From Promethearchaeota archaeon (GTDB lineage Archaea; Asgardarchaeota; Lokiarchaeia; Sigynarchaeales; SOKP01): a stretch of 13,921 nucleotides of DNA. The DNA lies in contig JAEOTJ010000070.1 of NCBI GenBank assembly GCA_016839905.1, positions 1 to 13,921 on the forward strand. Reading direction: 5' to 3'. The position numbers and the translations under genes were made by a program. This document shows positions 1-13,921 of the stretch, in pieces. The notes under the pieces were generated by a model. That model searched no databases. It was given only the letters and a program-made list of their open reading frames with translations, and was not told the origin of the DNA. Position 1 is the first letter of the stretch; each line of letters starts with the position of its first letter.

Positions 1-436
1 CTTTAACTTCAAAAGATAAATAGTGATTAAGAACAGTAATTGTATCAGATTCCCCAATATAATCATCTTCTATTACCACTGTCTTATTAGGGGCCACTAT
101 ATCTTCAACTGTAATATTAATTAAAGATGTATTAAAATTTGAATCAGTTGGACAAGGTTTCGAAAAAATACTCTGAGTATCTATATTTGTAAGTTCTATT
201 ATTGAAGTATTTAATAAAGATTGATGTAGAGTTACATTTATGTTATCTCCATTACCATTGAATTCATTACTATAACTAGAAGATTTAATATCGTGAGGAA
301 AATTTTTATCATTCTCTATAGAATTATTTTTTTCCTCAAAACTAATTATATCTATATTAAATAAATAACTACTAAAAACTAGAGCATTAAAAATGGTAAG
401 ATTTATTAGTAAATAAATTATATTTCTTCGTTTCAT
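1..436 (-). CDS. Partial surface protein, paralogue of the 1484-residue neighbour
   Basis: This is the first 145 codons of a gene that continues past the left edge. The ATG at 436 is chosen because GAGAGG lies 7 bases upstream; an ATG two codons earlier (442) would leave almost no spacing. Residues 1-27 (MKRRNIIYLLINL...) form a basic start plus a hydrophobic segment, so a signal peptide or signal anchor. From about residue 59 the protein aligns with residues 64-150 of the upstream gene product: shared blocks are GNG, LHQSLLN, IELTN, a PCP-D motif with one Cys, INIT, APNKT and EDD. It carries several N-X-S/T sequons, so it is probably exported and glycosylated. It follows the paralogue on the same strand after a T-rich gap. 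Function is unknown; a surface or adhesion-type role is inferred from the full-length neighbour. Whether it also has a cytoplasmic domain cannot be seen here. Confidence 0.8.
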   Translation of the reverse strand, partial: MKRRNIIYLLINLTIFNALVFSSYLFNIDIISFEEKNNSIENDKNFPHDIKSSSYSNEFNGNGDNINVTLHQSLLNTSIIELTNIDTQSIFSKPCPTDSNFNTSLINITVEDIVAPNKTVVIEDDYIGESDTITVLNHYLSFEVK

Positions 437-569
437 ATTCATTCCTCTCAATAAAATAAAAAAGTATCTATTTTTTTTTGTAGCATTCTAAGATAAGATT
501 TTACATGTAATATTTTCATATTAATAAGTATTATATAATAATGAATATTTGCATTAAAATTTATTTTTC

Positions 570-594
570 AAAACAAAAAAGCAAAAAAAAAGAG
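570..594 (-). terminator. Oligo-T terminator after the large surface protein
   Basis: Read on the minus strand, just past the stop of the 1484-residue gene, there are runs of nine and six T separated by GC, then a further T-rich stretch. No hairpin is needed for archaeal oligo-T termination. The remaining 437-617 gap holds only AT-rich sequence with a TATA-like stretch near 526-541 (minus) that could serve the partial paralogue, but I cannot assign it firmly. Confidence 0.45.
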
Positions 595-617
595 TTGAAT
601 TTTTATTAGAAATGGTT

Positions 618-3600
618 TTAACTTTGTCTTTCAAATTCCTTGGATTTATTCGTTAATCGTTTCAATTCTTTATTCATTTTACTAAATCCAAGTTTGAACA
701 TTTCATTAGCTAGTATAGAAGCTTCTTTATATTTTTCAGCAGCTTCTGAGTAGTTTTCTTCTTTAGCGGCCTCATTACCCTCTTCTTCTAATTGTTTCAT
801 TTTTACTTTCGCTTCTTCTACAGTAATTGAACGGGCTAAATCTTCTACGATATTAAACTCTTTTGTCAATTCCCAACTCGTTGCTACTGATGCTGCGTTT
901 TTTAGAATTGTCATGGTGTTTTCAAATTCTTTTTCTTTTTTAGATTTATTCGCTAATTTTATCAATTTATTAATCTCTTTTTTAGCGGATTTTATATCAT
1001 CAATTACTCCGGTCCCTCCTATTGATTTAATTGGAGCAGTAATAATTTCTTGCTTTTTAAATAAACTGGATAAGTAGGCTTCTCTTTCTGCGGGTCTCAT
1101 TTGAGTTAAATTATTTAGGAGATTCTGTCTTTCTTCTTCATTTAATTCAGGAAATTCTAAAATTTTTTGATAAAGTAAATTCAGTTCCTGTTGAGTAATT
1201 GGTTGCTGTTCTAAGGATGATATATCAATTGGAACAAAAATTCTTTTATCTCTTAACTCTTTAATTCCTAAAAAGATTTCTGAATTGTCTTTCCTTGTCT
1301 GATCTGCGACTTCTTTTAATACGGTAGCAATGAAAAAGAACTCCCGTTCAGTCTCATCTACTAATTCTTCAGCAATCTCGAGTATGATTTTTGTATTGGG
1401 ATTTTTTAGAGACTTTGGATCATAGAAATCATAAGTAATTTGATGTGGTAATATAATCGAAGTATTTAAAATATCATCCACAATTTGTCCGGCATTTTGG
1501 AAAATATTTAATTGTCCTCTCCAGTATGGCAAATCTTTTCCGTAAATATCCTCAAAAGCATCAATAAATGCTTTTAAATGTTTTCTAAGTAGAACTGAGG
1601 CATTTTTACTCAATACTAAGGCAACTCTGATATACTCTCCATCAGATAATAATAACATTTTATCTCCATAAGTAATTTCATTCAATGCTTGTTGTGATTC
1701 CATTTCTCTGCCAAATGAACTAACGGCTGATATAAATCCACTTATCAATTCGGGGTTTATTTGCTCTATTCCAAATGATTTAAAGTAAAGGCATGTTCCA
1801 GATCCTTTATATAAGACTAAACAATGTTCTAAATTAACCGCATCCTCAAAAATAGTATTAACTTCACTTAAAAGTCTCTGTTTTTCCACTTTCTTAGGAG
1901 CAATAACACCACTATATACTCCATATACAACACCTAAAGCCAATCCAATTATTCCTATAATTATTATCCATGGTAAAAGGTTAATTCCGGGCTCTGGTAT
2001 AACTTGTATATTTGTAATTATTTCTGGATTGCTTGTGATATTATAGGCACCTTCCACATCAATTTCAATTTTAATGGTTTCTGCATCATTAGGAATATCA
2101 AATTCAAAAGTGACCTTACCATTGGCATCTGTTTTTTCTTCTTTATTATTAATTGTTATTTTTCCATTAACATAAAGGGTGACATATATTTTCCAATCTT
2201 TTAATACATCTGTATCAGTTTTAGTTTCATTATAAAATATTTTCCAATACACTTTTAGTGTAATAGTTAAAGAACTTCCTGCAGTTATAGGAGGTTCGGG
2301 ACTAATCTCAGAAACAACAATATCAATTTCGGCTCTTTGTTTAATTGTCAAATTAATGGAAAGAGTAGTATTTTCATAATTTGTTCTCTTAACCGTGATA
2401 TTTAAAGTATAATTACCAACACTTAAAGTTGAAACTAAAACCTTTCCCTTAATCGTCCCGTAATCGGGGGTCTTTATTGCATAAGCAATATTTGGGGTCA
2501 GAGAACCATTGATATTTGCATTAGATCTATTATACCAATTAATACTATATGAGTACGCTCCAGGAGGTCCTGTGATATTTTTTTTGTTATCATCAATATC
2601 ACTCATGTTAAATTCAATGAAAATATCATTATCATAAAATACTTCATAAAAATTTTCATAACTTAAGGGGGTGATCTCCTGTTCCACCTTCTCATCAATA
2701 AAATAATTTAATGATATTATTTTAATTTGAGAATAATTACCCTCAAGATAAAATGAGATAATATATTCGCTCCAATTATAATTTGGATCTTTTGAAATAT
2801 TCAATCTTAAAGAATGATCTCCTGAATTTATTCCAGTAGTGCTAATATTTAAAACATAGTTTCCATCATTGAGCCCTGATGGGATTAAGGTCCAATTATG
2901 ATCTCCTGCTCCTCTTTCCCATAATAAGCCAGTATTATTGTCATAGACCTTAACATCTGCAGTATTAAGCCCTAAAATAGGTTTATTATTTATTGTATCA
3001 TTAAAGTAAAAGGAAAATGATTGATTATATCTATATTTTCTTTTCAGAGTGGCATTATATGAATTAAGTTGAATTTGAGATTGTGTTAATTGAACATTTA
3101 TAGTTAAATTAACATCTTTTGGTTTAAAACCCATTTTCCCTATGCTAAAATTACATTTAAATGGAGAATTAGAAATATCTGCATTACTAGTATTTAACAG
3201 AATACTATAATTTCCTTGACCTATTTCATTTTTAGTATATGTAATTCCTGAAGGAACATCCAATTCTGTAATATTTGCTCCTTCAATTGGTGGTCCATTG
3301 AGTTCTTCTGAATAATTAAAGGTAAAATTGATATTCATCCCTCTTATTACTGAACAATCCAGAGTAGTAGGGTCAATTTCAGTTTCAGTTTCTGAAACAA
3401 TTGTTAAGATTGTCTCATTGAAACCTACAGCAGTTCCATTATTCCAAGAAACTTGAACATTTAAGGCACCATTAAATGTTTCTGTAATATTTTTAGATAA
3501 ATCCCAATCTTTTATTGAGAGTTCTAAAGTTGAAATACTTATAGATTGATAAGATGTAAAATTCAATTCATTATTAGGAGAATAAACACTTAAGTTGATA

Positions 3601-5072
3601 TTACCATCAAAAATATTTTCTGAAAATGTCGTATTAAAATGAATAATATATGAATAGCTTGCTTTATCTATTGGAATTGAATTACCACTAATATACATAT
3701 CTATAGATTGAACCAAATTTGAAGAATTAGCTATTAAATACCAATTGACTCCATTTCCTGCGTCTAGAACAGAGATTTCTTTGTATCCATCAATTATAGG
3801 AGCAGAAAGATCTAAAGTTTTTGCGGTAGTTCCGTTGTAAACCTCAATACCATGATCCCAATTTGATGGTAAGGTATAATTAATAATATAATTACTAAAT
3901 CTTGAATCAAATTCATTAAATCCACCTGCTCTAGTTATATTCCATAAAGCTTCAGATCCCCCATAGGGAAAGTAAAATGAAGAATCTGCTACTATATCTC
4001 TTTTAGTATAATTAATTTGAACACGACTAATATTACAATAGACATCCCACCAATCTTCGGTTGATAAAGTAAAATTAAGCTTATTTAAAGGACTTGAATA
4101 TTCTGAAATATCTACCCAATATCCTTTATTATTAATATTTATATCTCCAATAACTGCAGTGTCATTGATATTTAAATTGATATCTTCAGGTTTAGGATTT
4201 TTATTTGCCGGAGAAAAGCCTATTTTAAGTAAAAGATCTACAGTTTCAAAATTTCTTTCATAAAGAGTTGAATTATCATTAGCATAGACTAAGTGCTCAT
4301 CCTTAGCATCTATACCAGTTACATCATAAGCACCATCCCAGATTAACGTTTCATCGCCAACACCATTCACTTTAAAGAAAAATGTATTATTATATGTATT
4401 TGAAGTATTATAAGGGATATGAAGTCCAGTGAAATTATGCCAGTAATATGGAGAAACTTGGATAACCACCTCATCTACAACAATTGGATTACTACCAATC
4501 TGTATACTTGGTCTTATTTCTCCTGAACCTCCAGATGCATTATACAAATCAATTGTGATATTGCATGAACCTGCACCAGATTTTCTAACATGCATTGAAA
4601 TATTTTCAATAAATCCCGCCCCTCTTGCTTCAAATGAAGCATATTCTCCATTTACCCCTAGAAAACCCCCTAATCCCGCAGAATCGTCCTCTACGATTAA
4701 TGTCTTATTTGGAGCATATATTTTGTCAATTGTTATATTAATAAAAGAGGAGTTAAAATATGGATCAGATGGGCATGGCTGTGTAAAACTATTTGATATA
4801 GTAAGATTAGTAAGTTCTATTTCTGAATTATTTAATAAAGATTGATGTAATTTAATATCAATTTTTGTTCCATTTCCAGTTAGAGATTGAGAATAACTGG
4901 ATAAAATTGGTAGATGTCTATTAAAATTAAATATAGAATCATCAGTACTCTTTTTATTATTAATATGATGAGCTTTTTTATTTAAATAGTGTAAATTTAA
5001 ATTTGAAATAATTAATGTACCAATCAAGAATATAAGAACAATTTTACTTTTATTTTTAGTTAAAATAATCAT
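618..5072 (-). CDS. Large single-pass surface protein with cytoplasmic longin/Roadblock-like domain
   Basis: Predicted to be a 1484-residue membrane protein. Visible layout: hydrophobic signal/anchor about 10-25; N-terminal globular part 60-290 with the block shared with its paralogue; beta-rich region 290-560; three related beta-sandwich repeats about 570-660, 667-780 and 785-910, each ending in a GNY-type strand and a hydrophobic strand; a Big/Ig-like domain 911-1027 with TDANGKVTFEF; one membrane span 1032-1054 followed by PKK; then cytoplasm. The ectodomain has about fifty N-X-S/T sequons and the cytoplasmic part very few. Residues 1080-1200 (LVLYKGSGTCLYF, then helix, strands, long helix) resemble the longin/Roadblock-like fold of Asgard proteins. 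Residues 1225-1282 could be winged-helix-like, and 1365-1410 and 1427-1462 look like TPR helix hairpins. The start is supported by AGGA 7 bases upstream. A receptor or adhesin that signals to small GTPases is inference; no enzyme motif is visible. Confidence 0.85.
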   Translation of the reverse strand: MIILTKNKSKIVLIFLIGTLIISNLNLHYLNKKAHHINNKKSTDDSIFNFNRHLPILSSYSQSLTGNGTKIDIKLHQSLLNNSEIELTNLTISNSFTQPCPSDPYFNSSFINITIDKIYAPNKTLIVEDDSAGLGGFLGVNGEYASFEARGAGFIENISMHVRKSGAGSCNITIDLYNASGGSGEIRPSIQIGSNPIVVDEVVIQVSPYYWHNFTGLHIPYNTSNTYNNTFFFKVNGVGDETLIWDGAYDVTGIDAKDEHLVYANDNSTLYERNFETVDLLLKIGFSPANKNPKPEDINLNINDTAVIGDININNKGYWVDISEYSSPLNKLNFTLSTEDWWDVYCNISRVQINYTKRDIVADSSFYFPYGGSEALWNITRAGGFNEFDSRFSNYIINYTLPSNWDHGIEVYNGTTAKTLDLSAPIIDGYKEISVLDAGNGVNWYLIANSSNLVQSIDMYISGNSIPIDKASYSYIIHFNTTFSENIFDGNINLSVYSPNNELNFTSYQSISISTLELSIKDWDLSKNITETFNGALNVQVSWNNGTAVGFNETILTIVSETETEIDPTTLDCSVIRGMNINFTFNYSEELNGPPIEGANITELDVPSGITYTKNEIGQGNYSILLNTSNADISNSPFKCNFSIGKMGFKPKDVNLTINVQLTQSQIQLNSYNATLKRKYRYNQSFSFYFNDTINNKPILGLNTADVKVYDNNTGLLWERGAGDHNWTLIPSGLNDGNYVLNISTTGINSGDHSLRLNISKDPNYNWSEYIISFYLEGNYSQIKIISLNYFIDEKVEQEITPLSYENFYEVFYDNDIFIEFNMSDIDDNKKNITGPPGAYSYSINWYNRSNANINGSLTPNIAYAIKTPDYGTIKGKVLVSTLSVGNYTLNITVKRTNYENTTLSINLTIKQRAEIDIVVSEISPEPPITAGSSLTITLKVYWKIFYNETKTDTDVLKDWKIYVTLYVNGKITINNKEEKTDANGKVTFEFDIPNDAETIKIEIDVEGAYNITSNPEIITNIQVIPEPGINLLPWIIIIGIIGLALGVVYGVYSGVIAPKKVEKQRLLSEVNTIFEDAVNLEHCLVLYKGSGTCLYFKSFGIEQINPELISGFISAVSSFGREMESQQALNEITYGDKMLLLSDGEYIRVALVLSKNASVLLRKHLKAFIDAFEDIYGKDLPYWRGQLNIFQNAGQIVDDILNTSIILPHQITYDFYDPKSLKNPNTKIILEIAEELVDETEREFFFIATVLKEVADQTRKDNSEIFLGIKELRDKRIFVPIDISSLEQQPITQQELNLLYQKILEFPELNEEERQNLLNNLTQMRPAEREAYLSSLFKKQEIITAPIKSIGGTGVIDDIKSAKKEINKLIKLANKSKKEKEFENTMTILKNAASVATSWELTKEFNIVEDLARSITVEEAKVKMKQLEEEGNEAAKEENYSEAAEKYKEASILANEMFKLGFSKMNKELKRLTNKSKEFERQS

Positions 5073-5530
5073 TATAAAATCCTATTTTAGTTTTCATTTT
5101 TTTTTTATATATAAAAAAAAATAGCCATTTTATTACTTAATGTTATGCTTTTAAAATATTTCTAATTTTAAAAGATATAGTATATCTATATTATAATATG
5201 TATTTTTCCATAAATTTAAAATTTATAATGTTATGAATAAAAATCAACAATTAATTTATAATATTATAACTTAGATGTTTTTTAATTTAAAAATATAAAA
5301 TTCGGGGTATTAATATCTAGGTGATAACAAATATTTTTTCTTTTCCTTATTTTATAAAAATTTAGATGGATATCATATAAACTTTTGGATCTGATATATA
5401 TTTATTTCATAATCTATCATTCTTTGGGCAATTAAGCACCCTAGCTTCTGGGGAAACATTAAAATAAATAGTCTTATTAAAATTAATTAGAAGAATAAAA
5501 TTAGTAAATAATTAAAATTTAGTAAAATAT
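5073..5530. other. AT-rich intergenic spacer with one GC-richer island
   Basis: The spacer separates the start of the surface protein gene from the end of the acetyl-CoA synthetase gene, both on the minus strand. It is almost entirely A and T except around 5420-5457. That island lies in a 28-codon minus-strand frame from ATG 5459 to a TGA at 5373-5375, which starts MFPQKLGCLIAQ and has no Shine-Dalgarno. The plus strand is also open through it. I recognise neither peptide; it may be a gene remnant, a small RNA or chance. No tRNA, rRNA or clear C/D-box RNA was seen. Confidence 0.5.
5106..5113 (-). promoter_or_regulatory. TATA box of the large surface protein gene
   Basis: TATATATA flanked by long A and T runs lies 34-41 bases upstream of the ATG at 5072. 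A start of transcription about 26 bases downstream would give a leader of roughly 12 bases that just includes the AGGA Shine-Dalgarno at 5080-5083. The surrounding sequence is extremely AT-rich, so a chance match is possible. Confidence 0.4.
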
Positions 5531-6217
5531 TTACTTAGATTTTAGAATAATTCGAGCATCAACACAAACTAATCCTTTTTCGTAAATAAATACAGGATTT
5601 AAATCCATTTCGTTAATCTCCTCGTGCTTAATTACGAGGTCTGATATTTTTAAAAGCGTATCTACGATTGCATCAATATCTGCCTTAGGTTTTCCACGAT
5701 ATCCATTTAAAAGGGGGAAGCCTTTAATCTCATGAATCATTTCTCGAGCATCATATTCAGTTATTGGCGCAATTCTAAAGCTAACATCTTCTAAAAGCTC
5801 AACAAGTATTCCTCCCACGCCGAATGCCAAGGCAGGTCCGAACTGAGGGTCTGTAGTCATCCCAATGATTAATTCTGTTATTGGTTCATCTGCCATTTGT
5901 TGCACAGAGATTCTTTTTTCAACTTTAGAGGGAATCTTCATTAAGTCATCAAAAGCTTTTTCTATTTCTTTATTATTCTTTATATTAAGGCACACTGCCC
6001 CAATATCTGATTTATGTATAACATCTTCAGCTATTAATTTTAAAACTACAGGAAAACCAATTTCCTCCGAAGCTCTTATAGTCTCGTCTTTTGTAATAGT
6101 TAATATTTGAGGGGTAATGGGTATACCGATCTCTTCTAATAATTTTTTAGACTCAAATTCAGTAAGAACATTCTGTCCAGAATTACTTTTTTCCTTTAAG
6201 AGTTTAATTATACTCAT
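5531..6217 (-). CDS. acdB: Acetyl-CoA synthetase (ADP-forming), beta subunit
   Basis: ATP-grasp subunit of ADP-forming acyl/acetyl-CoA synthetase, which makes ATP and acetate (or another acid) from the acyl-CoA, ADP and phosphate in the cytoplasm; in archaea this is the usual energy-conserving last step of peptide or sugar fermentation. At 228 residues it matches the separate beta subunits of Thermococcales (about 230). Visible motifs: GFPVVLK about 54-60, HKSD 68-71, DPQFGPALAFGVGG 123-136, the APIT-DA-EMI-EIKG segment 150-166, and the ending MDLNP 204-208 followed by VDARIIL. I prefer ATG 6217 (MSIIKLLKEK), which aligns with the family start; an in-frame TTG at 6244 would add nine residues. 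Neither has a clear Shine-Dalgarno. The alpha subunit (CoA-binding, with the catalytic His of the CoA ligase part) is not next to it, so it must be encoded elsewhere if the complex is made. It is transcribed away from the GTPase gene. Confidence 0.93.
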   Translation of the reverse strand: MSIIKLLKEKSNSGQNVLTEFESKKLLEEIGIPITPQILTITKDETIRASEEIGFPVVLKLIAEDVIHKSDIGAVCLNIKNNKEIEKAFDDLMKIPSKVEKRISVQQMADEPITELIIGMTTDPQFGPALAFGVGGILVELLEDVSFRIAPITEYDAREMIHEIKGFPLLNGYRGKPKADIDAIVDTLLKISDLVIKHEEINEMDLNPVFIYEKGLVCVDARIILKSK

Positions 6218-6324
6218 TAGACTTTTTTTAATATTTGAATGCAAAAATTTATTATTATATTCTCTAATTATTTACTAAAAAGAATTAATATTATACTAAA
6301 AAATATTTACAATTCTTTAATAGA

Positions 6325-6334
6325 TTTATAAAAA
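6325..6334 (+). promoter_or_regulatory. TATA box of the first Roadblock-GTPase gene
   Basis: TTTATAAAAA lies 34-43 bases before the ATG at 6368. The expected transcript start is near 6355, giving a leader of about a dozen bases with no Shine-Dalgarno, so initiation would be leaderless-like. The gap 6218-6367 is divergent and should also hold the acdB promoter, but I see no distinct box for it. Confidence 0.45.
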
Positions 6335-6367
6335 ATACCAAAAAATATTGAATTTTAAGAATTAAAA

Positions 6368-7450
6368 ATGGTCATTAAAAAACAAGAGAACATTTCAATA
6401 TTATTGAAAAATTTTGTTGAGTCTCAAAAGGATGTTGAGATGACTTTTCTCTATTCTCGACAAGGCCTTTTAATAGCAAAATATGGCCGATCTGAAATGA
6501 GTGGCTCTAGCGAACGGGATATTGAAGAAATTCATGGCGCCATAACTGGACTTGTCGAAAATCTACTTGAGAAAATTAGCATGGAATATCAAATTGGACA
6601 TTATGGGACTGGCTCTTTTGAAACACCTGACCATCGAATCATATTTCTCGAAGCTGGGCCTGAAGCCATCCTGTTATGTGTTTGTAATTATGATACAAAT
6701 TTAAACATATTATTACCCATAGCTTATTTGGTTGTTGAAAAGCTTGCCCAATTACTTGAAGAGAGTTTTGATTTTAAATATAATTCTTTAGATATTCCAG
6801 AATTGATTATTCATGACGATTTCGCCATAGATTTAGATAAATACATTGTAGAAGACCAAGAACCTTTATATGATAATGTAAAACTAAAACACCTTATTAA
6901 AATAGAAAGAAAAAAGGAACAAATTTTTAAATTAATTGTTATTGGTTCAGCAGCCGTGGGAAAAACTACATTAATAAACAGTTTTTTAAAGAAGGATCAA
7001 CTTTCAAGTTACCGTCCAACATTAGGAATTTCCATATCTCAACAAAAATATTACCTTAAAGGCTTCAAAGATGATATTATTACATTTCTAGTTTATGATC
7101 TTGCTGGTCAAGAATTTTTCAAAAGAGTAAGGCATGAATATTATCACGGTGCTCATTGTGTTTTTGTTGTTTATGATATAACACGAAGGGAAACCTTTGA
7201 CGAAGGATTAGATTTCTGGTTTAAAGATGCTCGAAAAGAATTAGGAAATATTCCTTTTGTTCTCATTAGTAATAAAATAGATTTGGAAGAAGAGAGAAAG
7301 GTAACAAAAAAGGAGGGTATAAAGAAAGCCCAAGAATTAAAAAGCTTTTTCATTGAAACATCTGCTTTACATAATGTTAATGTTCAAGACATTTTTAAAT
7401 TGATTGGTATCGGTCTTTTTTTTAAATCTATTGATGAGTTGGAACAATAA
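6368..7450 (+). CDS. Roadblock/LC7 domain fused to a Ras-like small GTPase (copy 1)
   Basis: A 360-residue fusion. Residues about 22-135 form a Roadblock/LC7 domain: strand MTFLYSRQGLLIAKYG, helix GAITGLVENLLEK, strand HRIIFLEAG, strand ILLCVCNYDTNLN, long C-terminal helix. An acidic linker (140-185) leads to a complete G domain: P-loop GSAAVGKT 193-200, switch I Thr in RPTLG 216-220, DLAGQE 244-249 with the Gln used for hydrolysis in Ras, SNKID 301-305, and ETSAL 330-334. It should bind and hydrolyse GTP. Roadblock domains dimerise and serve as GTPase regulators or platforms (MglB, Ragulator), so the fusion may dimerise or dock onto longin/Roadblock partners; that is inference. There is no prenylation motif or membrane span. 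A near-identical N-terminal half is found in the next gene. Fusions of this kind are typical of Asgard archaea. Specific cellular role unknown. Confidence 0.93.
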   Translation: MVIKKQENISILLKNFVESQKDVEMTFLYSRQGLLIAKYGRSEMSGSSERDIEEIHGAITGLVENLLEKISMEYQIGHYGTGSFETPDHRIIFLEAGPEAILLCVCNYDTNLNILLPIAYLVVEKLAQLLEESFDFKYNSLDIPELIIHDDFAIDLDKYIVEDQEPLYDNVKLKHLIKIERKKEQIFKLIVIGSAAVGKTTLINSFLKKDQLSSYRPTLGISISQQKYYLKGFKDDIITFLVYDLAGQEFFKRVRHEYYHGAHCVFVVYDITRRETFDEGLDFWFKDARKELGNIPFVLISNKIDLEEERKVTKKEGIKKAQELKSFFIETSALHNVNVQDIFKLIGIGLFFKSIDELEQ

Positions 7451-7528
7451 TTTAAATATTAAAATTTTTATTATTCCATTTTACTTCATTTTTAAAATTA
7501 CTTTTTAATAAATACATTTAATTCTGCA

Positions 7529-7542
7529 TTTATTAATAAAAG
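7529..7542 (+). promoter_or_regulatory. Possible TATA element of the second Roadblock-GTPase gene
   Basis: TTTATTAATAAAAG lies about 32-45 bases before the ATG at 7574, a spacing like that of copy 1. Both genes have AAGAAT shortly before the ATG and no Shine-Dalgarno. The 123-base gap also holds T-rich stretches just after 7450 that could terminate copy 1, so the two genes may be transcribed separately. Confidence 0.3.
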
Positions 7543-7573
7543 TTAAATAAATGTTTTACTCATAAGAATATAG

Positions 7574-7993
7574 ATGGTCATTAAAAAACAAGAGAACATT
7601 TCGATTCTATTGAAAAATTTTGTTGAGTCTAAAAAGGATGTTGAGATGACTTTTCTCTATTCTCGACAAGGCCTTTTAATAGCAAAATATGGTCGATCTG
7701 AAATGAGTGGCTCTAGCGAACGGGATATTGAAGAAATTCACGGTGCCATAACTGGACTTGCCGAAAATCTACTTGAGAAAATTGGCATGGAATATCAAAT
7801 TGGACATTATGGAACTGGCTCTTTTGAAACACCTGACCATCGAATAATATTTCTCGAAGCTGGGCCTGAAGCCATCTTGTTAAGTGTTTGTAATTATGAT
7901 ACAAATTTAAACGAATTACTACCAATGGCGTATCTAGTTGTTGAAAAGCTTGCCCAATTGCTTGAAGAGAGTTTTGATTTCAAGTTTAATTCT
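7574..7993 (+). repeat. Near-identical direct repeat of 6368-6787 (Roadblock-coding half)
   Basis: By eye about 25 of 420 bases differ between the two copies (roughly 94% identity), with 7 amino-acid changes in 140 codons. Identity begins at the ATG and falls sharply after codon 140, where the linkers no longer align in DNA and the G domains differ at many silent sites. Confidence 0.85.
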
Positions 7994-8671
7994 TTACAAC
8001 TTCCAAATTTAGAAGTTTTTGAAGATTATTCTTTAGAATTAGATAAAAATTATTCTACTAAAGATGAAGAACCCTTATTTGATAGTGTATATCAAACACA
8101 CCATATAAAAAGAAAGGAAAAAATAACAAAAGCCTTTAAATTAATAGTTTTAGGAGAAGCCGCAGTAGGCAAGACTACTTTAGTAAATAGTTTTTTGAAA
8201 AAGAAACAGATTTCAGATTATAGACCCACTCTTGGACTGTCTTTAAATTCACAAAAGTACTTCTTGCAAGGATTTAGTGACCAAGAGATAAACTTTTTAG
8301 TGTATGACCTTGCGGGGCAAGAATTTTTTAAAAGAGTAAGGCACCAATACTATTCAGGCGCAAGCTGTGTCTTTGTAATTTATGATATCACGCGGAGGGA
8401 AACTTTTGATGAGGGAGTGGATTTTTGGTTTAAAGACGCTCGGAATGAATTAGGAAACATCCCGTTTGTCCTCATTGGAAATAAGATAGATTTGGAAGAC
8501 CAAAGGCAAGTGACTAATGAGGAGGGGATAAACAAAGCTCGAGAATTAAGAAGCTTTTTCATTGAAACTTCAGCATTACATAACATAAATGTTCAAGATA
8601 CTTTTAAATTGATTGGTATTGGTCTTTTTTTCAAGTCTAAAGCAGATTTGCAAGAAGAGGATGAGATATAA
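7574..8671 (+). CDS. Roadblock/LC7 domain fused to a Ras-like small GTPase (copy 2)
   Basis: A 365-residue paralogue of the gene before it, with the same order: Roadblock/LC7 domain (about 22-135), acidic linker (140-188), G domain. Motifs: GEAAVGKT 194-201, RPTLG 217-221, DLAGQE 245-250, GNKID 302-306, ETSAL 331-335, all intact. Differences from copy 1 lie mainly in the linker (longer, with STKDEEP), the strand between switch I and switch II, residues 204-241, and the tail, which ends in the acidic EEDEI. The Roadblock halves are about 95% identical in protein while the G domains are roughly three-quarters identical. So the two proteins probably share a Roadblock partner, or form heterodimers, but may differ in effectors or exchange factors; that is inference. 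The gene converges on the ATPase gene, with only 62 bases between the two ends. Confidence 0.93.
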   Translation: MVIKKQENISILLKNFVESKKDVEMTFLYSRQGLLIAKYGRSEMSGSSERDIEEIHGAITGLAENLLEKIGMEYQIGHYGTGSFETPDHRIIFLEAGPEAILLSVCNYDTNLNELLPMAYLVVEKLAQLLEESFDFKFNSLQLPNLEVFEDYSLELDKNYSTKDEEPLFDSVYQTHHIKRKEKITKAFKLIVLGEAAVGKTTLVNSFLKKKQISDYRPTLGLSLNSQKYFLQGFSDQEINFLVYDLAGQEFFKRVRHQYYSGASCVFVIYDITRRETFDEGVDFWFKDARNELGNIPFVLIGNKIDLEDQRQVTNEEGINKARELRSFFIETSALHNINVQDTFKLIGIGLFFKSKADLQEEDEI

Positions 8672-8701
8672 CCAATCTTTTAATTTAATACCTGAAATCA
8701 T

Positions 8702-8729
8702 AAAAAAAAAAGTAAAAACAGAAAAAAAA
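8702..8729 (-). terminator. Oligo-T terminator of the Ca2+-ATPase gene
   Basis: Minus-strand runs of eight T (8729-8722) and about ten T (8711-8702), separated by CTGTTTTTAC, follow the stop at 8734. This fits archaeal oligo-T termination in the short convergent gap. Confidence 0.5.
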
Positions 8730-8733
8730 TAAA

Positions 8734-11574
8734 TTATTTTTTACGGACTACTATACCTCTCTTTTTTCTTAACCGCCACTTTCTTGCCTCATCAACGAAA
8801 AACACGGAACAACCAGCAAGTATTAACGTGAACCAATATTGCCAGAGGAGTAACGGCACGACATGAAACGCTATACCCATGGGAGTAAATAATATTAATA
8901 ATTGTAATCCTAAAGATAATCCCGTAGCCCAGAATAAGTGTTTATTTGGAAACGTCCAAAAAGGCTTTATATTAGAAGTACAAGAATAGACAAATAGTAA
9001 TTCACATATAACTAAATTTGTAAAGAGTATAGTTTGTGCCAATGAAATAGCATATAAATTCGCAGCTGTGCCTGCTGTTGCAAAATCCATGGTTAGATTA
9101 GGATCTATTCCTGCTTGAGCCCAAGCGGGAATTAAAACAGACCATAATAGAATATATAATGTAATATCAGTAATAGATGTATAGATTCCTAAAAATAATA
9201 CAGGCCCTTTAATTTCTGGTAATAATGTGAATCCTTCACGCGGTTTTTCATTCATTACATCAGGATCTGTCGGAGTTAACCCCAGGACCATTGCAGGTAT
9301 TCCATCAGTTGCGATATTTAACCATAATATTTGAATTGGCTCTACAGGTAGAGCAATGAATACATTAACAAATAGTTTCATGAGAATATATGCAGTAAGA
9401 ATCAAGAAAATCTCATCAAAATTGGTGCTTAACATGTATCTGAAGAAACCCTTAGTAGTTTCAAAGATACCTCTTCCTTCCTCTATTGCATTAATAATTG
9501 TTGCATAATTATCATCAATTAATATCATTTCGGAGGCTTCTTGAGTAACCTCTGTCCCTTTTAGACCCATTGCTACTCCTACATGAGCGCCTTTCACTGC
9601 GGGAGCATCATTAACTCCATCCCCCGTCATGGCGACTATTTTACCTAATTCTTTCAATCTCCTCAGAATACGTAATTTATGTTCAGAAGTTACTCTAGCG
9701 TAGACATCTACAGTTTTTACTTTTTCTCGGAGCTCATCATCATTCATTTCCTCTAATTCTACTCCAGTAATTGCCTCAGCTGATTCCGTTAAACCTATCT
9801 CATGTGCAATTGCGATTGCTGTTATTTTATGGTCTCCAGTAATCATTATTGTACGAATGCCAGCATTTCTTGCACTTTTAATTGCTCCTTTTACTTCATC
9901 TCTGGCAGGGTCAATAATTCCACATAAACCGATATAAGTATAATCTGTTTCAACAGTATTGATATCATATCCAGATTGTAAATCTTTATAAGCAACTCCA
10001 AGAACTCTAAGTGCTTGCTTTGCAAATGTTTCATTTTGTTTTAAAATATTGTCTTTTGCGTCAGAAATAGGTTTTTCTTGACCGTTTATTAGGACTTTAG
10101 AAGCATTTCTCATTAATACATCGGGAGCGCCTTTTATATATGCTCTAATCTTCCCATCCTTCTTTCCAATAACAGTCATCATTTTTCTATCAGAATTGAA
10201 AGGTATTTCATCTAGTTTTTCAAAGCTCGTATCAATACCAATTTTCATTCCTAATACTTTCATAGAAATTTCTGTAGGATCCCCTACAACAGAAGTATCT
10301 CCAGTTTTGTCATCCTCGATATTGACAACTGAATTATTACAAAATAAGCAGGCTTGGGAAAATATTTTTATATCATCATCTATACTAACAGGATTACCAT
10401 CTTGGAGGATTTTTCCCTTTATATTATATCCTACTCCTTCAACATCTAGGATTTTGTTACTAAGAAACATCTTTACAACTGTCATTTCATTTTTTGTAAG
10501 AGTACCCGTTTTATCTGAACAAATGATATTTACTCGACCAAGAGTTTCAACAGCGGTTAATTTTCTAACTAATGCATTCCGATCTGCCATTTTTTTCATA
10601 CCTATACTCATCACAACAGTTATGACTACAACAAGCCCTTCAGGAACTGCTGAAACTGCTAAACTTATGGCAATTTTAAATGCTTCTACGAGTTCATCGA
10701 TTTTTTGATCTACGGGCATGTCGACTTCAATTACTAATACCAAGATTAATTCTATTACAAAAACTGCCGCACATATTACTATAATGAGAATCCCTAATAA
10801 TTTTCCAAATTTATCAACTTCTTTCTGGAAAGGACTTGGTTCAATTTGTTCTTCCTGTAAGCTTCCTGCTATTTTTCCAATTTCAGTATTCATCCCAGTT
10901 CCAATAACTATTCCTTCCCCGTTCCCTCTAGTAATAATTGTGTTCATATAGCCGAGATTTGTTCTATCAGCTAAAATTTCCTTTATATCTACTGTTTTTA
11001 ACTTTTTCTTTACAGGTTTTGATTCTCCTGTCAAAATTGCTTCATCAACATATAAAGAAAATTCTTTATATAGACGTATATCTGCAGGAAATTTATCTCC
11101 TTCCTCAATTAAAACTATATCTCCGGGAACAAGGTCAGCAACACCAATTTCACTAACTATACCTCCTCGTCTAACTTTGGCAAAGCGGGGAGCTAACTTT
11201 TTCAAGCTTTCAAGAGACTTCTCAGCAGAATATTCCTGATAAAAACCTAGAACGGCATTTACGATTAAAATTGAAGCAATAACAACTGCATCTGTATATT
11301 CTGAAGACCACCCTCCACCATGTTTACTTGCTTCCCAAGCTCCGATAATAATAGAAATGACAATGGCAAAAATCAACAAGTAAATGAGAAAATCTTGAAA
11401 TTGAGCGATGAAAATCTGCCAAGCAGTTTTTCCTTTTTGCTGAACTAATTCATTTTTCCCGTATTTCTCATACCTATCTTGTACATCTGCTTCAGATAAG
11501 CCCTTTTCTAACGATGTATCTAATTTCTTAACTATTTCTTCAACCTCTGAAGCATGAGCATTAATATTTTCCAT
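8734..11574 (-). CDS. P2A-type Ca2+-transporting ATPase (SERCA/PMR1-like)
   Basis: A 946-residue P-type pump expected to export Ca2+ at the cost of ATP. Layout: cation-ATPase N-terminal domain about 8-75; actuator TGES 182-185; M4 PEGL 311-314; phosphorylated D354 in DKTGTLT; nucleotide-binding KGAPD 481-485; TGD 579-581; hinge TGDGVND 650-656; six C-terminal spans from about 710. Ca2+ ligands known from SERCA are conserved: E312 in M4 (SERCA E309), N718 and E721 in M5 (N768, E771), N753, T756 and D757 in M6 (N796, T799, D800). E858 in the M8 region may match E908, so both Ca2+ sites may be present; PMR1-type pumps keep one. The C-terminus is short and basic, with no obvious autoinhibitory calmodulin-binding tail. 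The ATG follows an AGGA 12 bases upstream, rather far away. Single gene, convergent with the GTPases. Mn2+ transport cannot be excluded. Confidence 0.94.
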   Translation of the reverse strand: MENINAHASEVEEIVKKLDTSLEKGLSEADVQDRYEKYGKNELVQQKGKTAWQIFIAQFQDFLIYLLIFAIVISIIIGAWEASKHGGGWSSEYTDAVVIASILIVNAVLGFYQEYSAEKSLESLKKLAPRFAKVRRGGIVSEIGVADLVPGDIVLIEEGDKFPADIRLYKEFSLYVDEAILTGESKPVKKKLKTVDIKEILADRTNLGYMNTIITRGNGEGIVIGTGMNTEIGKIAGSLQEEQIEPSPFQKEVDKFGKLLGILIIVICAAVFVIELILVLVIEVDMPVDQKIDELVEAFKIAISLAVSAVPEGLVVVITVVMSIGMKKMADRNALVRKLTAVETLGRVNIICSDKTGTLTKNEMTVVKMFLSNKILDVEGVGYNIKGKILQDGNPVSIDDDIKIFSQACLFCNNSVVNIEDDKTGDTSVVGDPTEISMKVLGMKIGIDTSFEKLDEIPFNSDRKMMTVIGKKDGKIRAYIKGAPDVLMRNASKVLINGQEKPISDAKDNILKQNETFAKQALRVLGVAYKDLQSGYDINTVETDYTYIGLCGIIDPARDEVKGAIKSARNAGIRTIMITGDHKITAIAIAHEIGLTESAEAITGVELEEMNDDELREKVKTVDVYARVTSEHKLRILRRLKELGKIVAMTGDGVNDAPAVKGAHVGVAMGLKGTEVTQEASEMILIDDNYATIINAIEEGRGIFETTKGFFRYMLSTNFDEIFLILTAYILMKLFVNVFIALPVEPIQILWLNIATDGIPAMVLGLTPTDPDVMNEKPREGFTLLPEIKGPVLFLGIYTSITDITLYILLWSVLIPAWAQAGIDPNLTMDFATAGTAANLYAISLAQTILFTNLVICELLFVYSCTSNIKPFWTFPNKHLFWATGLSLGLQLLILFTPMGIAFHVVPLLLWQYWFTLILAGCSVFFVDEARKWRLRKKRGIVVRKK

Positions 11575-11610
11575 ATATCTTCAAATTCCTTTAGTTTATC
11601 CGTTAAATCT

Positions 11611-11626
11611 AAGATTTTTTATTAAA
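11611..11626 (-). promoter_or_regulatory. Possible TATA element of the Ca2+-ATPase gene
   Basis: On the minus strand TTTAATAAAAAATCTT lies about 37-52 bases before the ATG at 11574. The predicted transcript start near 11593 would leave a leader of about 20 bases containing AGGA. Weak, as the background is AT-rich. Confidence 0.3.
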
Positions 11627-11672
11627 TTGAAAAAAAAACCTAATAATATTTTACTAAAATGCAATATTATAA

Positions 11673-11680
11673 TTTATATA
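11673..11680 (+). promoter_or_regulatory. TATA box of the HesB-like selenoprotein gene
   Basis: TTTATATA, continuing in a T-run, would place the transcript start near 11702. The first AUG of that transcript is the one at 11722, preceded by GGTGAT at 11715-11720. This supports a gene starting here rather than at the internal ATG codons at 11798 or 11849. Confidence 0.4.
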
Positions 11681-11721
11681 TTTTTAGTTTTACAAGATAG
11701 AATATAATTTATAAGGTGATT

Positions 11722-12091
11722 ATGTTTTAAATTAAAATTCTCTCAAAAAGCATTAGATTTTATCCTTAAAAAAAATGAAGAAAGCCAAGAAAAAGAAATG
11801 GATAAGAATGTAGTAGCTATATTTTATTACTCTTCAGAATCTTGAACGATGTTTTTTTGTGGTAATGTTCTTGAATTAGTAGGAAAGCAAAGAATATTTG
11901 AAGAAATTGATGACTTCACCCAATGGACTGAAATTATCGATAATCCTAAAGTTGAGGTCTATATTGAAAAAAATATTCTTCAAGAACTTAAACTTAAAGA
12001 AACGATATTAATTGACGTTGTAATTGGTGAAGTTAAAGGCGAAAAAATAGGTTTGCTATTTATTAAAAAAGAAAAAGACGTATATGGTTAA
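11722..12091 (+). CDS. HesB/IscA-like protein, probable selenoprotein (in-frame UGA; frameshift near start)
   Basis: The open frame from 11849 is the C-terminal part of a longer gene. Codons 11729-11842 directly upstream, in the same frame, encode a protein-like stretch (KLKFSQKALDFIL, then VVAIFYYSSES) followed by one TGA (11843-11845), ACG, and the ATG at 11849. Read through, this gives about 122 residues, the usual HesB/IscA size, with the pattern of that fold: first strand plus helix, strand VVAIFYY, then KVEVYIEKNIL and a closing LLFIKK. The UGA falls at residue 41, where the first conserved Cys of HesB proteins is expected; a Cys follows at 46. HesB-related selenoproteins are a known family. 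The AUG at 11722 is one base out of frame (ATGTTTTAAA; one T fewer gives M-F-K-L-K-F), so there is an indel, an assembly error or a +1 shift. Likely role: iron-sulfur or redox chemistry. A decayed pseudogene is the alternative. Confidence 0.65.
11843..11845 (+). other. Candidate selenocysteine UGA codon
   Basis: The TGA sits between two coding-like segments of the same frame with sense ACG directly after it. The nine other stops of complete genes in this window, including this gene's own end, are TAA or TAG, so TGA is not a preferred terminator here. Decoding as Sec is inferred from this, from the position of the HesB cysteine, and from the hairpin in the 3' UTR. Confidence 0.6.
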
Positions 12092-12134
12092 AAATATGAT
12101 CTATTCCTAAAAACTTTAGAGGAATGGTGATTTT
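12092..12134 (+). promoter_or_regulatory. Eukaryote-like SECIS element in the 3' UTR
   Basis: Right after the stop codon, 12096-12100 reads AUGAU. Eight base pairs follow: CUAUUCCU (12101-12108) with AGGAAUGG (12120-12127), one of them U-G. The loop AAAAACUUUAG (12109-12119) begins with the A residues expected at a SECIS apex. Then comes UGAU (12128-12131), so the two UGA/GA motifs can form the tandem G-A quartet of a kink-turn. The lower helix is only AAAA/UUUU. The stem is slightly shorter than typical eukaryotic elements. Such SECIS-like structures in 3' UTRs are known from Lokiarchaeota. The classic archaeal GAA/A internal loop is absent. Confidence 0.6.
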
Positions 12135-12230
12135 CAGTTGCTTCTGATTCCTTATACTGAAAATATATAAACTTTATAAGAATGAATATTTTAATTCAAC
12201 TTAATTGAAATATTTAAAATAAACATTATA

Positions 12231-12240
12231 TTATATAAAA
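12231..12240 (+). promoter_or_regulatory. TATA box of the three-gene membrane protein unit
   Basis: TTATATAAAA ends 18 bases before the ATG at 12259. With a usual spacing of about 25 bases the transcript would start at or within a few bases of the ATG, so the first gene is probably read from a leaderless message. No Shine-Dalgarno is visible before it. Confidence 0.45.
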
Positions 12241-12258
12241 AAAATCAAAGCTGATTAA

Positions 12259-12816
12259 ATGAGAAGGTCACGAGTTTTTAGGCTAATAGTACGACTATTT
12301 TTACTCGTATTAACATTGTCCGTGTCTCTAATCTCTTTCTTAGGTGGACTTTCCGCATTTTTGATCTTATCTGATGTAGAGGAAAATTTTAACATAGATC
12401 TTGACAATATTGAAGGTAATTTTACTATAACTGCATCAGAAAGTATGTATGTTGAAATACCTATTCGGTTTAAAAATGTAGGCTATTTTGATTTAGAAGA
12501 TCTTACTATAGAACTCACAATTTACATGACATATGGAGATAATTCAAGTAATAATGCATCAACAACTATAGAAATATTTAATAAGATACAGGAATTTGAT
12601 ACTATCCCTTCTGGTAAAAATTATAAGGATAAGTATAAAGGTGAATCGGAGGATTTTAATTCAGATGATTTTAATGATATAAAGAAGGATATAACTATTT
12701 CTCCGGATTTTCCAATTAATTATACCGGAGACATATTTGTTAGATGTAAGTATTCCTTGGGCTTTCTAGGTTTAAGAGTAGAACTACTGGACTTCCCTTT
12801 AGAGGGGCTTATTTAG
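12259..12816 (+). CDS. Membrane-anchored protein with beta-rich outer domain, unknown function
   Basis: A 185-residue protein that I do not recognise. A basic start (MRRSRVFRLIVR) leads into a hydrophobic stretch of about 25 residues (13-37), which fits a signal anchor with the rest outside. The outer part (45-185) alternates strand-like segments: IEGNFTITA, MYVEIPIRFKNVG, LTIELTIYMTYG, ITISPDFPINYTG, FVRCKYSLGF. The motif of a strand, then KNVGYFDLEDLTI and a later TIPSGK turn, is reminiscent of LEA/WHy-type or CARDB-like beta sandwiches, but the match is by eye only. A strongly acidic linker (128-144, SEDFNSDDFNDIKKD) and a few sequons are present. It heads a compact unit of three membrane proteins: its TAG stop overlaps the Shine-Dalgarno of the next gene. 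The first ATG is at the predicted transcript start. Confidence 0.8.
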   Translation: MRRSRVFRLIVRLFLLVLTLSVSLISFLGGLSAFLILSDVEENFNIDLDNIEGNFTITASESMYVEIPIRFKNVGYFDLEDLTIELTIYMTYGDNSSNNASTTIEIFNKIQEFDTIPSGKNYKDKYKGESEDFNSDDFNDIKKDITISPDFPINYTGDIFVRCKYSLGFLGLRVELLDFPLEGLI

Positions 12817-12821
12817 GAGGT
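12815..12821 (+). promoter_or_regulatory. Strong Shine-Dalgarno overlapping a stop codon
   Basis: AGGAGGT shares two bases with the TAG of the preceding gene and sits 7 bases before the ATG at 12829. It is the best ribosome binding site in the window and suggests translational coupling within an operon. Confidence 0.8.
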
Positions 12822-12828
12822 ATTCAAA

Positions 12829-13410
12829 ATGGGAGCAGTAAAAAATGGTATGAGAGGAACAATATTTACAATTATTTATATTATAACAACTGTAATTATT
12901 CCATTTATTACATTTGCATTAATTATGAATTTGGGTAACTTTGGACCGCAAGGAATTTCAATAGGGATGGATAGAGCAACATATCAACAAATAATCTTTT
13001 GGATTTTGGCTTTTGGACTACTAATTAGTGGTACTGCCTTTTTTGCCTATTCTTCACCTTCACAATCAATACGGAGAGGGATTTTTGCTTTAATTCAAGT
13101 AATCTTAAATTGCCTATATATATGGAGTTATAAATTTTCGGGAGCTCTTGAACTTGAATTCACATTAAATGTTGGTGCAAATGATGGTTTAGTAGCAATA
13201 AATCTTGAACAATTAATAATGATTTGTTTAGGACTTTACTTTTTGACAATAATACTAAAAACGTATGACTTAATTGATTTTACACTCAATCGGAAAAAGA
13301 TTCAGCAGATGCGTCTTAAAGGAACCTTAAAAGAAAGAAGAACGGAAAAACCTGGAGAAATTGAAAAGAAAATTAATAAAAAAGACAAAAAAAAAGGAGA
13401 TGGTGATTAA
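12829..13410 (+). CDS. Four-span membrane protein with lysine-rich tail, unknown function
   Basis: A 193-residue protein that I do not recognise. Likely membrane spans are 11-33, 54-74, 84-103 and 124-148. The segment between spans 1 and 2 (NFGPQGISIGMDRATYQQ) and the one between spans 3 and 4 (ALELEFTLNVGANDG) are polar; SPSQSIRRG between spans 2 and 3 is positively charged, which puts it and both ends inside by the positive-inside rule. The C-terminal 45 residues are very rich in Lys and Arg and end in KKDKKKGDGD, a cytoplasmic tail that could contact lipids, nucleic acid or an acidic partner. There are no catalytic motifs. The start is fixed by the strong AGGAGGT upstream. It lies 12 bases after the previous gene and 5 bases before the next, so the three are very likely co-transcribed. 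Confidence 0.85.
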   Translation: MGAVKNGMRGTIFTIIYIITTVIIPFITFALIMNLGNFGPQGISIGMDRATYQQIIFWILAFGLLISGTAFFAYSSPSQSIRRGIFALIQVILNCLYIWSYKFSGALELEFTLNVGANDGLVAINLEQLIMICLGLYFLTIILKTYDLIDFTLNRKKIQQMRLKGTLKERRTEKPGEIEKKINKKDKKKGDGD

Positions 13411-13415
13411 ATATA

Positions 13416-13724
13416 ATGATAATTCAGGGAGCAAATATTTTTAGCATATTGGCAGAGATTATTGGTATAGTTTTTGGTTTCCTAGCACCATTCCTCGTGC
13501 CAATAGGAGAATTTATGGTTGATTTAATAGAAATAATTCTTCCGTTTTTTGACGATAGTAATCTTACTATTTATATTATAATTTTTATTGTTTTAATTAT
13601 TGCTGGAGCAATTGTGAATTCAATATGGCCAGGAGATAAACCAAAACAGGGAGAGAAAATAAAGAAAGAAGAAAAGATAAAACCCAAAGAAAATTTAGGT
13701 TCAGAAGATAAAATAGAGCCTTAA
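13416..13724 (+). CDS. Small two-span membrane protein with charged tail, unknown function
   Basis: A 102-residue protein that I do not recognise. Two hydrophobic stretches, about 8-30 (possibly extending amphipathically to 45) and 50-70, are joined by a short acidic turn (FFDDSNL). The tail after WPGDK (71-102) alternates Lys and Glu and ends in EDKIEP. The ATG at 13416 follows GGTGAT (13402-13407) by 8 bases; that site lies inside the end of the preceding gene, so translation is probably coupled. The charged tails of this protein and of its four-span neighbour are on the same side of the membrane if the second span here runs outside to inside, which would let them interact; this is inference. 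It ends the operon. Confidence 0.8.
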   Translation: MIIQGANIFSILAEIIGIVFGFLAPFLVPIGEFMVDLIEIILPFFDDSNLTIYIIIFIVLIIAGAIVNSIWPGDKPKQGEKIKKEEKIKPKENLGSEDKIEP

Positions 13725-13753
13725 ATTTTATTTTTAATATTTTTTTTCTATTA

Positions 13754-13803
13754 TCAGTTTCAAAGGAAGTAGAACTCTAAATCCCCTTTAACTGAATCTT
13801 TTT
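13754..13803 (+). terminator. Hairpin followed by T5, possible terminator of the membrane unit
   Basis: UCAGUU (13754-13759) pairs with AACUGA (13790-13795), and AAAGG (13762-13766) with CCUUU (13785-13789), with a two-base bulge and an 18-base loop. Five T follow at 13799-13803. A T-rich stretch at 13741-13747 precedes the hairpin and could terminate on its own. A structured 3' UTR with another role is possible. Confidence 0.4.
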
Positions 13804-13887
13804 CTATAAATATTTACTTCTAATTTTTATTATTTAACTATTATTTTTTTCCACTTATTTCCAATGGAAGTCTATCTAAAGATTTAT

Positions 13888-13921
13888 ATGAGAAAAGTGG
13901 TTATATTTATGTATGCGAATA
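13888..13921 (+). CDS. Possible start of a further gene, cut by the right edge
   Basis: ATG at 13888 opens a frame reading MRKVVIFMYAN up to the edge, a hydrophobic strand after a basic start, as at the beginning of many cytosolic proteins. An in-frame ATG at 13864 would add eight residues. There is no clear Shine-Dalgarno. Only eleven codons are visible, so this is weak; chance is a real alternative. Confidence 0.2.
   Translation, partial: MRKVVIFMYAN

Follow-up and report, generated by a model that had tools for sequence, protein, structure and literature searches.

The stretch of DNA analysed here, referred to below as the window, consists of positions 1 to 13,921 (forward strand, 13,921 nt) of contig JAEOTJ010000070.1 from a Promethearchaeota archaeon of the class Lokiarchaeia (assembly GCA_016839905.1), and it raises the question of whether a small gene interrupted by an in-frame TGA encodes a selenoprotein. 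The coding sequence (11726..12091, + strand, the exact start being uncertain) specifies 121 residues, including the putative selenocysteine (Sec, U), followed by a TAA stop. Its frame is open from 11726 to 12088 apart from the TGA at 11843..11845, which is the sole stop from 11720 until the TAA at 12089..12091. We conclude that this is very probably a selenoprotein gene, specifying a protein with the HesB/IscA fold that is translated through the UGA under the control of a selenocysteine insertion sequence (SECIS) in the 3' untranslated region (UTR), this element probably being a three-way junction. Comparison with relatives shows that the UGA is conserved and that the sequence on either side of it is coding; it also shows covariation in the SECIS, alternation between Sec and Cys in the wider homologues, the fold and the gene neighbourhood. 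The original prediction, which was made from the letters of the DNA, had proposed that the gene uses UGA as Sec; the conserved UGA, the selection and the covarying SECIS support this proposal, and we infer that Sec is almost certainly inserted at this codon.

In the mechanism proposed, translation of a protein with the HesB/IscA fold, about 121 residues long, would continue through the UGA at 11843..11845, which would be decoded as Sec under the direction of the SECIS in the 3' UTR. The latter would consist of a basal stem (P1) located partly in the last codons, a eukaryote-like kink-turn helix (P2) with an A-rich loop, and a further hairpin (P3). The Sec and the Cys at position +5 may form a redox couple or a metal site, and in the core family the protein might serve or regulate a divergently encoded cation pump of the SERCA/PMR1-like type.

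A set of 227 Asgard genomes was searched. The core family comprises 31 homologous loci in 26 of these genomes, and all 31 carry TGA at the codon in question. A profile search yielded the same 26 genomes with 31 strong matches, all with the TGA, a few of which also reach the terminal stop; the TGA at the aligned codon was checked by reading the frame at 29 loci, at L009 and at the paralogue of L035. Nine relatives besides the piece from the window were obtained in a protein search, six starting at the Met right after the UGA and three showing W, and four named loci from Lokiarchaeia/Lokiarchaeota turned up in a scan of the contigs of GTDB species. The proposed Sec codon corresponds to residue 40 in the 29-row alignment of the family (A5), where the invariant columns are Ala9, U40 and Cys45. 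The Cys codon (11858..11860, + strand) belongs to a U-x4-C motif (U-T-M-F-F-C-G) and is invariant in the 29 rows; the U/C column is the sole invariant one in a 28-sequence alignment including wider members of the family. The ratio of nonsynonymous to synonymous substitution rates (dN/dS) was calculated for 15 pairs: on the 5' side of the UGA it amounts to 0.07-0.41 in 13 pairs and 0.53 in one (the remaining pair being identical and its ratio undefined), and on the 3' side to 0.05-0.59. These values indicate purifying selection both 5' and 3' of the UGA, which, together with the conserved TGA, bears out the claim that two coding segments flank it. Homology is not confined to the part after the UGA, since the segment 5' of it is conserved as well, and the codons preceding it are not drifting in the 14 pairs having a ratio. 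In two core genes (L008 and L020), TGA also occurs as the apparent true stop with the SECIS downstream, so that the cell would have to distinguish between two UGAs in one mRNA.

It is very improbable that the UGA is read as Trp or as some other ordinary residue through a local change of code or readthrough without Sec. W is printed at the site in ten database relatives (P0002-P0004, P0011-P0014 and P0020-P0022), the DNA of which was not seen, and some of them may have a real TGG, but these residues most likely result from a gene caller's code in which TGA means Trp. Against a reading as Trp, the codon is TGA and never TGG in the 31 core loci at the DNA level, the replacement in three homologues is Cys and not Trp, a covarying SECIS lies downstream, and most of the core genomes contain genes for the synthesis of Sec. 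In agreement with the original prediction, TGA terminates none of the eight other long open reading frames (ORFs) checked, seven of which stop at TAA and one at TAG. Since, in addition, Trp in them is encoded by TGG (19 times in the 1484-codon ORF and 11 times in the 946-codon ORF, both of which run without any TGA), UGA is not generally reassigned in the window.

The protein database entry for the contig is an 80-residue piece (P0001) starting at the ATG at 11849, 3' of the UGA, which is exactly the truncation that had been foreseen. A Shine-Dalgarno-like GGTGAT (11715..11720, + strand) precedes, at a constant distance, the TTT AAA (Phe-Lys) that is conserved at the start of the protein; this spacing is identical in many relatives, the start codon of which is the one immediately 5' of 11726. 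The corresponding codon in the window is TGT (11723..11725) and no ATG, GTG or TTG occurs at this position; the ATG at 11722..11724, where the region marked in the original prediction opens, lies one base out of frame (ATG TTT TAA), and the earliest in-frame ATG is that at 11798. Neither at the start fixed by GGTGAT and TTTAAA nor upstream in frame is there any ATG, GTG or TTG in 11 of the 27 core genes, namely that of the window (11715-11731), L007, L008, L011-L013, L015, L017, L020, L023 and L026, which have TGT, CAT (twice), CTG, AAT, TTT, GTA, ATA (twice), TAG and TCG at the start position. Possible causes in these cases are errors, initiation of a non-canonical kind, or a shift by +1 at NTT-TAA-A. 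Although the database entry and the missing canonical start would suit a pseudogene, or two genes with the 80-residue protein as the true product, this explanation is just as improbable as the previous one, given that the N-terminal third is conserved (dN/dS ≤0.53) and makes up the initial strand and helix in the predicted fold, and that one identical TGA across 31 loci is not a sign of decay.

The hairpin that had been noticed in the 3' UTR, with its AUGA, 8-bp stem, A-rich loop and UGAU, was located at 12096..12131 (+ strand). It includes the AUGA (12096-12099), the main, kink-turn helix P2 (8 bp, 12101-12108 with 12120-12127), an 11-nt apical loop starting with AAAAA (12109-12119, AAAAACUUUAG) and the UGAU (12128-12131). 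The folding energy of the hairpin in the window is within the range expected by chance (z = -1.2; 24 of 200 shuffles were equally good), so that the case for a SECIS rests on comparison. A core measuring 36-37 nt from AUGA to GAU directly follows the stop in all 29 core sequences having a sufficient 3' flank, the variants among them being one ACGA, one AUAA and two AUGU. Two further parts of the element had been overlooked: the hairpin P3 (12134-12137 with 12144-12147, loop 12138-12143, + strand) and the basal stem P1, the 5' strand of which (12080..12087) shares its sequence with the codons for the Val-Tyr-Gly conserved at the end of the protein, while the 3' strand is at 12150..12157 (7 of the 8 pairs are formed in the window). 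Among 25 aligned core rows, 97.7% of the P2 and P3 cells are paired, versus 87.3% in shuffles, a control that is inflated by the kinship of the rows; when the partner is slid by 1-3 columns, which keeps the kinship but favours a structure drawn from the same sequences, the pairing falls to 41.5-52.5%. Double changes occur at 11 of the 12 pairs (all 8 of P2 and 3 of the 4 of P3), which means that the hairpin does covary. The covariance-model check that had been suggested drew a blank with the Rfam SECIS families, none of which reached the gathering score in the window or gave any match up to E 10 in 12000-12250. The element of the window nevertheless fits the Asgard type I model of the eukaryotic-type SECIS (eSECIS), with an AUGA_GA core, a 7-15 bp stem and an 8-20 nt loop.

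The eSECIS-like elements described in PMC11227280 have an AUGA_GA core, lower stems and, in Lokiarchaeia, an AAAAA loop, and the key region is defined without a P3. The present element resembles those of type I in its AUGA_GA core, its 8-bp upper stem, its 11-nt AAAAA loop and its position just after the stop (PMC11227280), and differs from them in an additional hairpin, P3, inserted between P2 and P1, and in a P1 that extends into the coding sequence, neither of which is mentioned in the text consulted. That text contains none of the terms "hairpin," "three-way" and "HesB". The SECIS of Lokiarchaeota is described with a single apical loop in a review (PMC9499178), and the SECIS of a lokiarchaeal vhuU gene did not work when tried in Methanococcus maripaludis (PMC11881835). 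PMC2746813, which was considered as a precedent combining SECIS, a three-way junction and archaea, was set aside, the phrase being confined to its reference list.

As regards P1, cognate strands in fixed windows from 19 representatives pair better than swapped ones (mean -6.5 versus -4.5 kcal/mol, P = 5e-5), and this stem could explain the near-invariant Val-Tyr-Gly end. In L006, CCUAUGG can pair with CCAUGGG to form P1, and in L007 and L008, which have no Val-Tyr-Gly, P1 is located entirely within the 3' UTR. By eye, about two thirds of the 29 minimum-energy folds show the junction. Similar parts were found in the SECIS of the SelD genes of core genomes, based on 12 sequences from ten loci (L070, which has no 3' flank, and L073, which is of another type, were excluded): a P3-like hairpin is present in 12/12, followed directly by a P1 3' strand in 11/12. 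The mean score of this hairpin is 6.4, versus 3.8 in dinucleotide shuffles, and none of 500 joint draws scored as high. A swapped-arm test of the SelD P3 (P = 2e-4) was circular because the arms had been picked for pairing, and was dropped in favour of the shuffle score test. The SECIS model R1 finds only 1 of the 12 SelD loci at E below 0.001 because most of these are type II SECIS with a mini-stem. The same model found the SECIS of a VhuD/FrhD gene (L048), the flanks of which can form P3 and P1 by eye; its matches L049-L053 were inspected and judged to be due to chance.

It is distinctly unlikely that the SECIS works by P2 alone, P3 and P1 being side structures. This possibility would suit the key region defined without P3 in PMC11227280, the imperfect P1 of the window, which ranks 8th of 19, has one mismatch and is missing from the minimum-energy fold, the four relatives (L011, L013, L021 and L024) whose own P1 strands pair worse than most swaps, and the fact that, taken singly, the SelD sequences (related rows with 8 distinct arm pairs) are matched in P3 score by 30-173 of 500 shuffles. 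On the other hand, P3 covaries in the core family, and P3 and P1 recur in distant branches and in SelD, where no joint shuffle among 500 reached the mean of the 12 related rows. The three-way junction composed of P1, P2 and P3 is the structure that we predict for this SECIS with fairly good confidence.

The family extends beyond the core. When distant members were added to the profile and the search was repeated (E 0.05 or better), 70 matches were obtained in 56 of the 227 genomes, 54 of which have the TGA. Besides the 31 core loci, these comprise 23 loci from another 22 genomes. TGA-bearing loci are thus present in 48/227 genomes, or in 45 if three genomes with doubtful loci are left out (G085, with an extra TAA and no SECIS detected, and G088 and G091, with no SECIS detected); the E-values of G091 and of the second locus of G086 are near 0.02. 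The profile match L098 (G020) was inspected and judged to be noise, and L099 and L100 were rejected on account of their weak E-values and short coverage. The U occupies the HesB Cys position in all 23 further loci by eye, and in alignment A8 in the case of the 18 included there; the motifs include RSUSG, YSURG, HTUGG and SUCGP. A strict SECIS detector, which was written after the flanks had been viewed and which misses bulged P2 helices (it finds the full junction in 11/29 core sequences), detected the full junction in 11 of 20 wider TGA loci, at least P2 and P3 in 14, and P2 or more in 15, versus 0/600, 4/600 and 29/600 in dinucleotide shuffles, respectively; the P1 that it assigns to G076 and to G089 is doubtful. 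It missed G080 and G083, in which, by eye, P3 and P1 accompany an AUGA_AA core, and all three stems can be seen in L101-L103. In the four non-TGA relatives, the detector found no SECIS: L132, L146 and L147 have Cys in the U column, and L148 has neither Cys nor SECIS. The check for Cys or Sec at the site gave the putative Sec codon TGA at 54 loci, a few of them doubtful, and Cys at three, and an alternation between Sec and Cys at this position is apparent in the wider homologues. L132 (G111 contig 10, 77800-80200) is the middle one of three consecutive HesB-like genes with Sec, Cys and Sec, where a SECIS was detected only behind the Sec copies. L146 (G084) and L147 (G087), which are HesB-like relatives with Cys and no detected SECIS, have a C-terminal LGACEV motif.

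An AlphaFold model submitted to a fold search has a HesB/IscA-like fold. The HesB/IscA-like character that had been attributed to the protein is therefore upheld by structure comparison, and hardly at all by sequence profiles: no confident family was found for the core protein with the Pfam, NCBIfam and PDB-by-sequence profiles. The gathering score of PF01521 (Fe-S_biosyn) is not reached by any of the 29 members, two of which match (best E 0.067) and the window not at all, and its cut-off was reached in 0/8 core genomes. In the comparison with HesB-related selenoprotein models that had been advised, TIGR01911 was matched below its cut-off by 1/29 members (E 0.053), and its UxGP motif is absent; NF041239, the cut-off of which is 40 bits, was matched below it by 2/29 (best E 0.16). 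A tblastn search of plasmids gave no matches, and a match to UvrC (E 0.02), which is far below its cut-off, was rejected. The C-terminal CxC of the IscA/SufA scaffold provides ligands for Fe-S clusters. It is absent from all 29 rows of A5, which distinguishes the core family from IscA/SufA (PF01521), as does its score below the Pfam threshold. With the HesB-like selenoprotein of methanogens and bacteria (TIGR01911), the core family has in common the HesB/IscA-like fold, the small size and the Sec at the HesB Cys position, whereas it differs in its motif (U-[TLS]-x3-C instead of UxGP), its eukaryote-like SECIS and its neighbours; HesB-like selenoproteins are listed in PMC13188914 and also occur in PMC9312934. 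It differs from NF041239 (Moor_selen_rel, the CC/Se motif family of (seleno)proteins) in its length (121 versus 91 positions) and in its Asgard SECIS. Among the 10 proteins scanned, only the wider members L149 (45.0 bits) and L143 (40.2 bits) pass the NF041239 cut-off, and the superfamily therefore overlaps with that family. The putative Sec occupies the first conserved HesB Cys position, which, together with the Cys at +5, suggests that the protein is rather likely to have a redox or metal-binding role.

The machinery for Sec synthesis was surveyed in the genomes of the relatives (26 core, 227 overall) for SepSecS, SelD, PSTK and tRNA-Sec. SepSecS exceeds its cut-off in 24/26 core genomes versus 106/201 others (Fisher P = 8e-5), and in 42/48 of all the gene-bearing genomes versus 88/179 others (P = 1e-6), and G149 has a SepSecS fragment at a contig end. 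SelD with an in-frame TGA is present in 25/26 core genomes. Several observations weigh against the selenoprotein interpretation. PSTK-like proteins are found in 25/26 core genomes at E below 1e-36, none of which (0/26) exceeds the curated cut-off, and tRNA-Sec exceeds the Rfam cut-off in only 5/26. SepSecS gave no match in G152, and a Sec-type SelD is missing from G155, these metagenome-assembled genomes possibly being incomplete. L011 carries an in-frame TAA besides the TGA, no Cys homologue was found within the core family itself, and 5/20 wider loci showed no SECIS with the strict detector. The evidence for the fold comes from a predicted model with a middling Z-score, and Foldseek gave no match at E 0.001 or better. 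Under stricter filters, tRNA-Sec was found in 71 of the 227 genomes; sub-threshold matches mean little because all 14 control genomes give them. Those in G114, G155 and G157 directly adjoin SepSecS, and that in G114 measures 117 nt and perhaps contains an intron. A HesB-like gene with Cys (L054, G154 contig 15; PF01521 25.1 bits, just below the cut-off) is located about 3 kb from SepSecS.

HesB is not among the seven selenoprotein families listed in the accessible part of a broad Asgard survey (PMC11227280), and HdrA, Prx and MvhD selenoproteins have been reported in Sifarchaeia and Jordarchaeia (PMC9723677). A full-text literature search, which does not prove priority, yielded neither a HesB-like selenoprotein from Asgard archaea nor a SECIS with a three-way junction among earlier reports; this branch of HesB-like selenoproteins and this SECIS architecture were thus not found to have been described before. 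The HesB-fold superfamily (48/227 genomes) would be added to the seven families listed, and was probably missed because gene callers end the proteins at the UGA codon. With it come dozens of SECIS elements that are short and covary, from the lineage nearest to eukaryotes, and these suggest a three-way junction.

The original prediction was right about the selenoprotein gene, but overlooked the breadth of the family and the neighbouring ATPase. The latter, a P-type ATPase of 946 residues (8734..11574, - strand), is divergently encoded; of the proteins in the PDB, the calcium pumps LMCA1 and SERCA2 are closest to it, and it scores below the curated cut-offs for the PMR1 type (610 of 798 bits) and the SERCA type (581 of 703 bits). 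Head-to-head pairs with a P-type ATPase are present at 25/27 core loci, with 11-292 nt between the open frame and the nearest match, the exceptions being L006, which has a ZIP/ZupT-like gene (below cut-off) upstream, and L014, where the contig ends about 500 nt away. There is a nearly even chance that the pump has no functional relation to the selenoprotein, the arrangement reflecting neutral synteny or simply a shared promoter region: synteny is commonly maintained by descent within one phylum, L006 has the other gene instead, and none of the 20 wider TGA loci inspected (0.2-0.8 kb of upstream flank) has an ATPase neighbour. Against this, the divergent pair is conserved at 25/27 core loci, including seven (L005, L013, L020, L021, L023, L024 and L031) where none of the downstream neighbours M1-M3 was detected in the flank, which measures only 2 nt in L005. 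We therefore propose only tentatively that the core selenoprotein is a functional partner of the pump, as the gene order suggests.

In vertebrates, selenoprotein N (SELENON) is reported to act on SERCA2 by a redox process (PMC7474598). Both systems associate a selenoprotein with a SERCA-type pump, but the proteins are unrelated and the association is here only one of gene neighbourhood, so that the parallel is an analogy and not a homology. If the pump were controlled by redox or metal sensing, this would be a prokaryotic counterpart of the SELENON-SERCA link; and if the junction is ancestral to a reduced eukaryotic SECIS, P3 would have been lost when a dedicated binding protein, SBP2, appeared. 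It is unlikely that all the parts of this picture hold together, namely a broad Asgard superfamily of HesB-fold selenoproteins, a SECIS that is generally a three-way junction, a reduced eukaryotic SECIS and, in the core family, a Sec protein controlling the pump.

Downstream of the gene, the + strand carries M1 (12259..12816, 185 residues), which belongs to no confident family and is a neighbour at many core loci, M2 (12829..13410, 193 residues), which looks like a membrane protein by eye and has no family, and M3 (13416..13724, 102 residues), which also looks like a membrane protein by eye. The window also holds an ATP-grasp gene and two closely similar Ras-like GTPase genes in tandem (6368-7450 and 7574-8671), the N-terminal part of which (about 180 residues, scanned in the first copy) has no convincing Pfam match. 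The 1484-residue protein encoded at 618-5072 looks secreted by eye, and its C-terminal part looks cytoplasmic.
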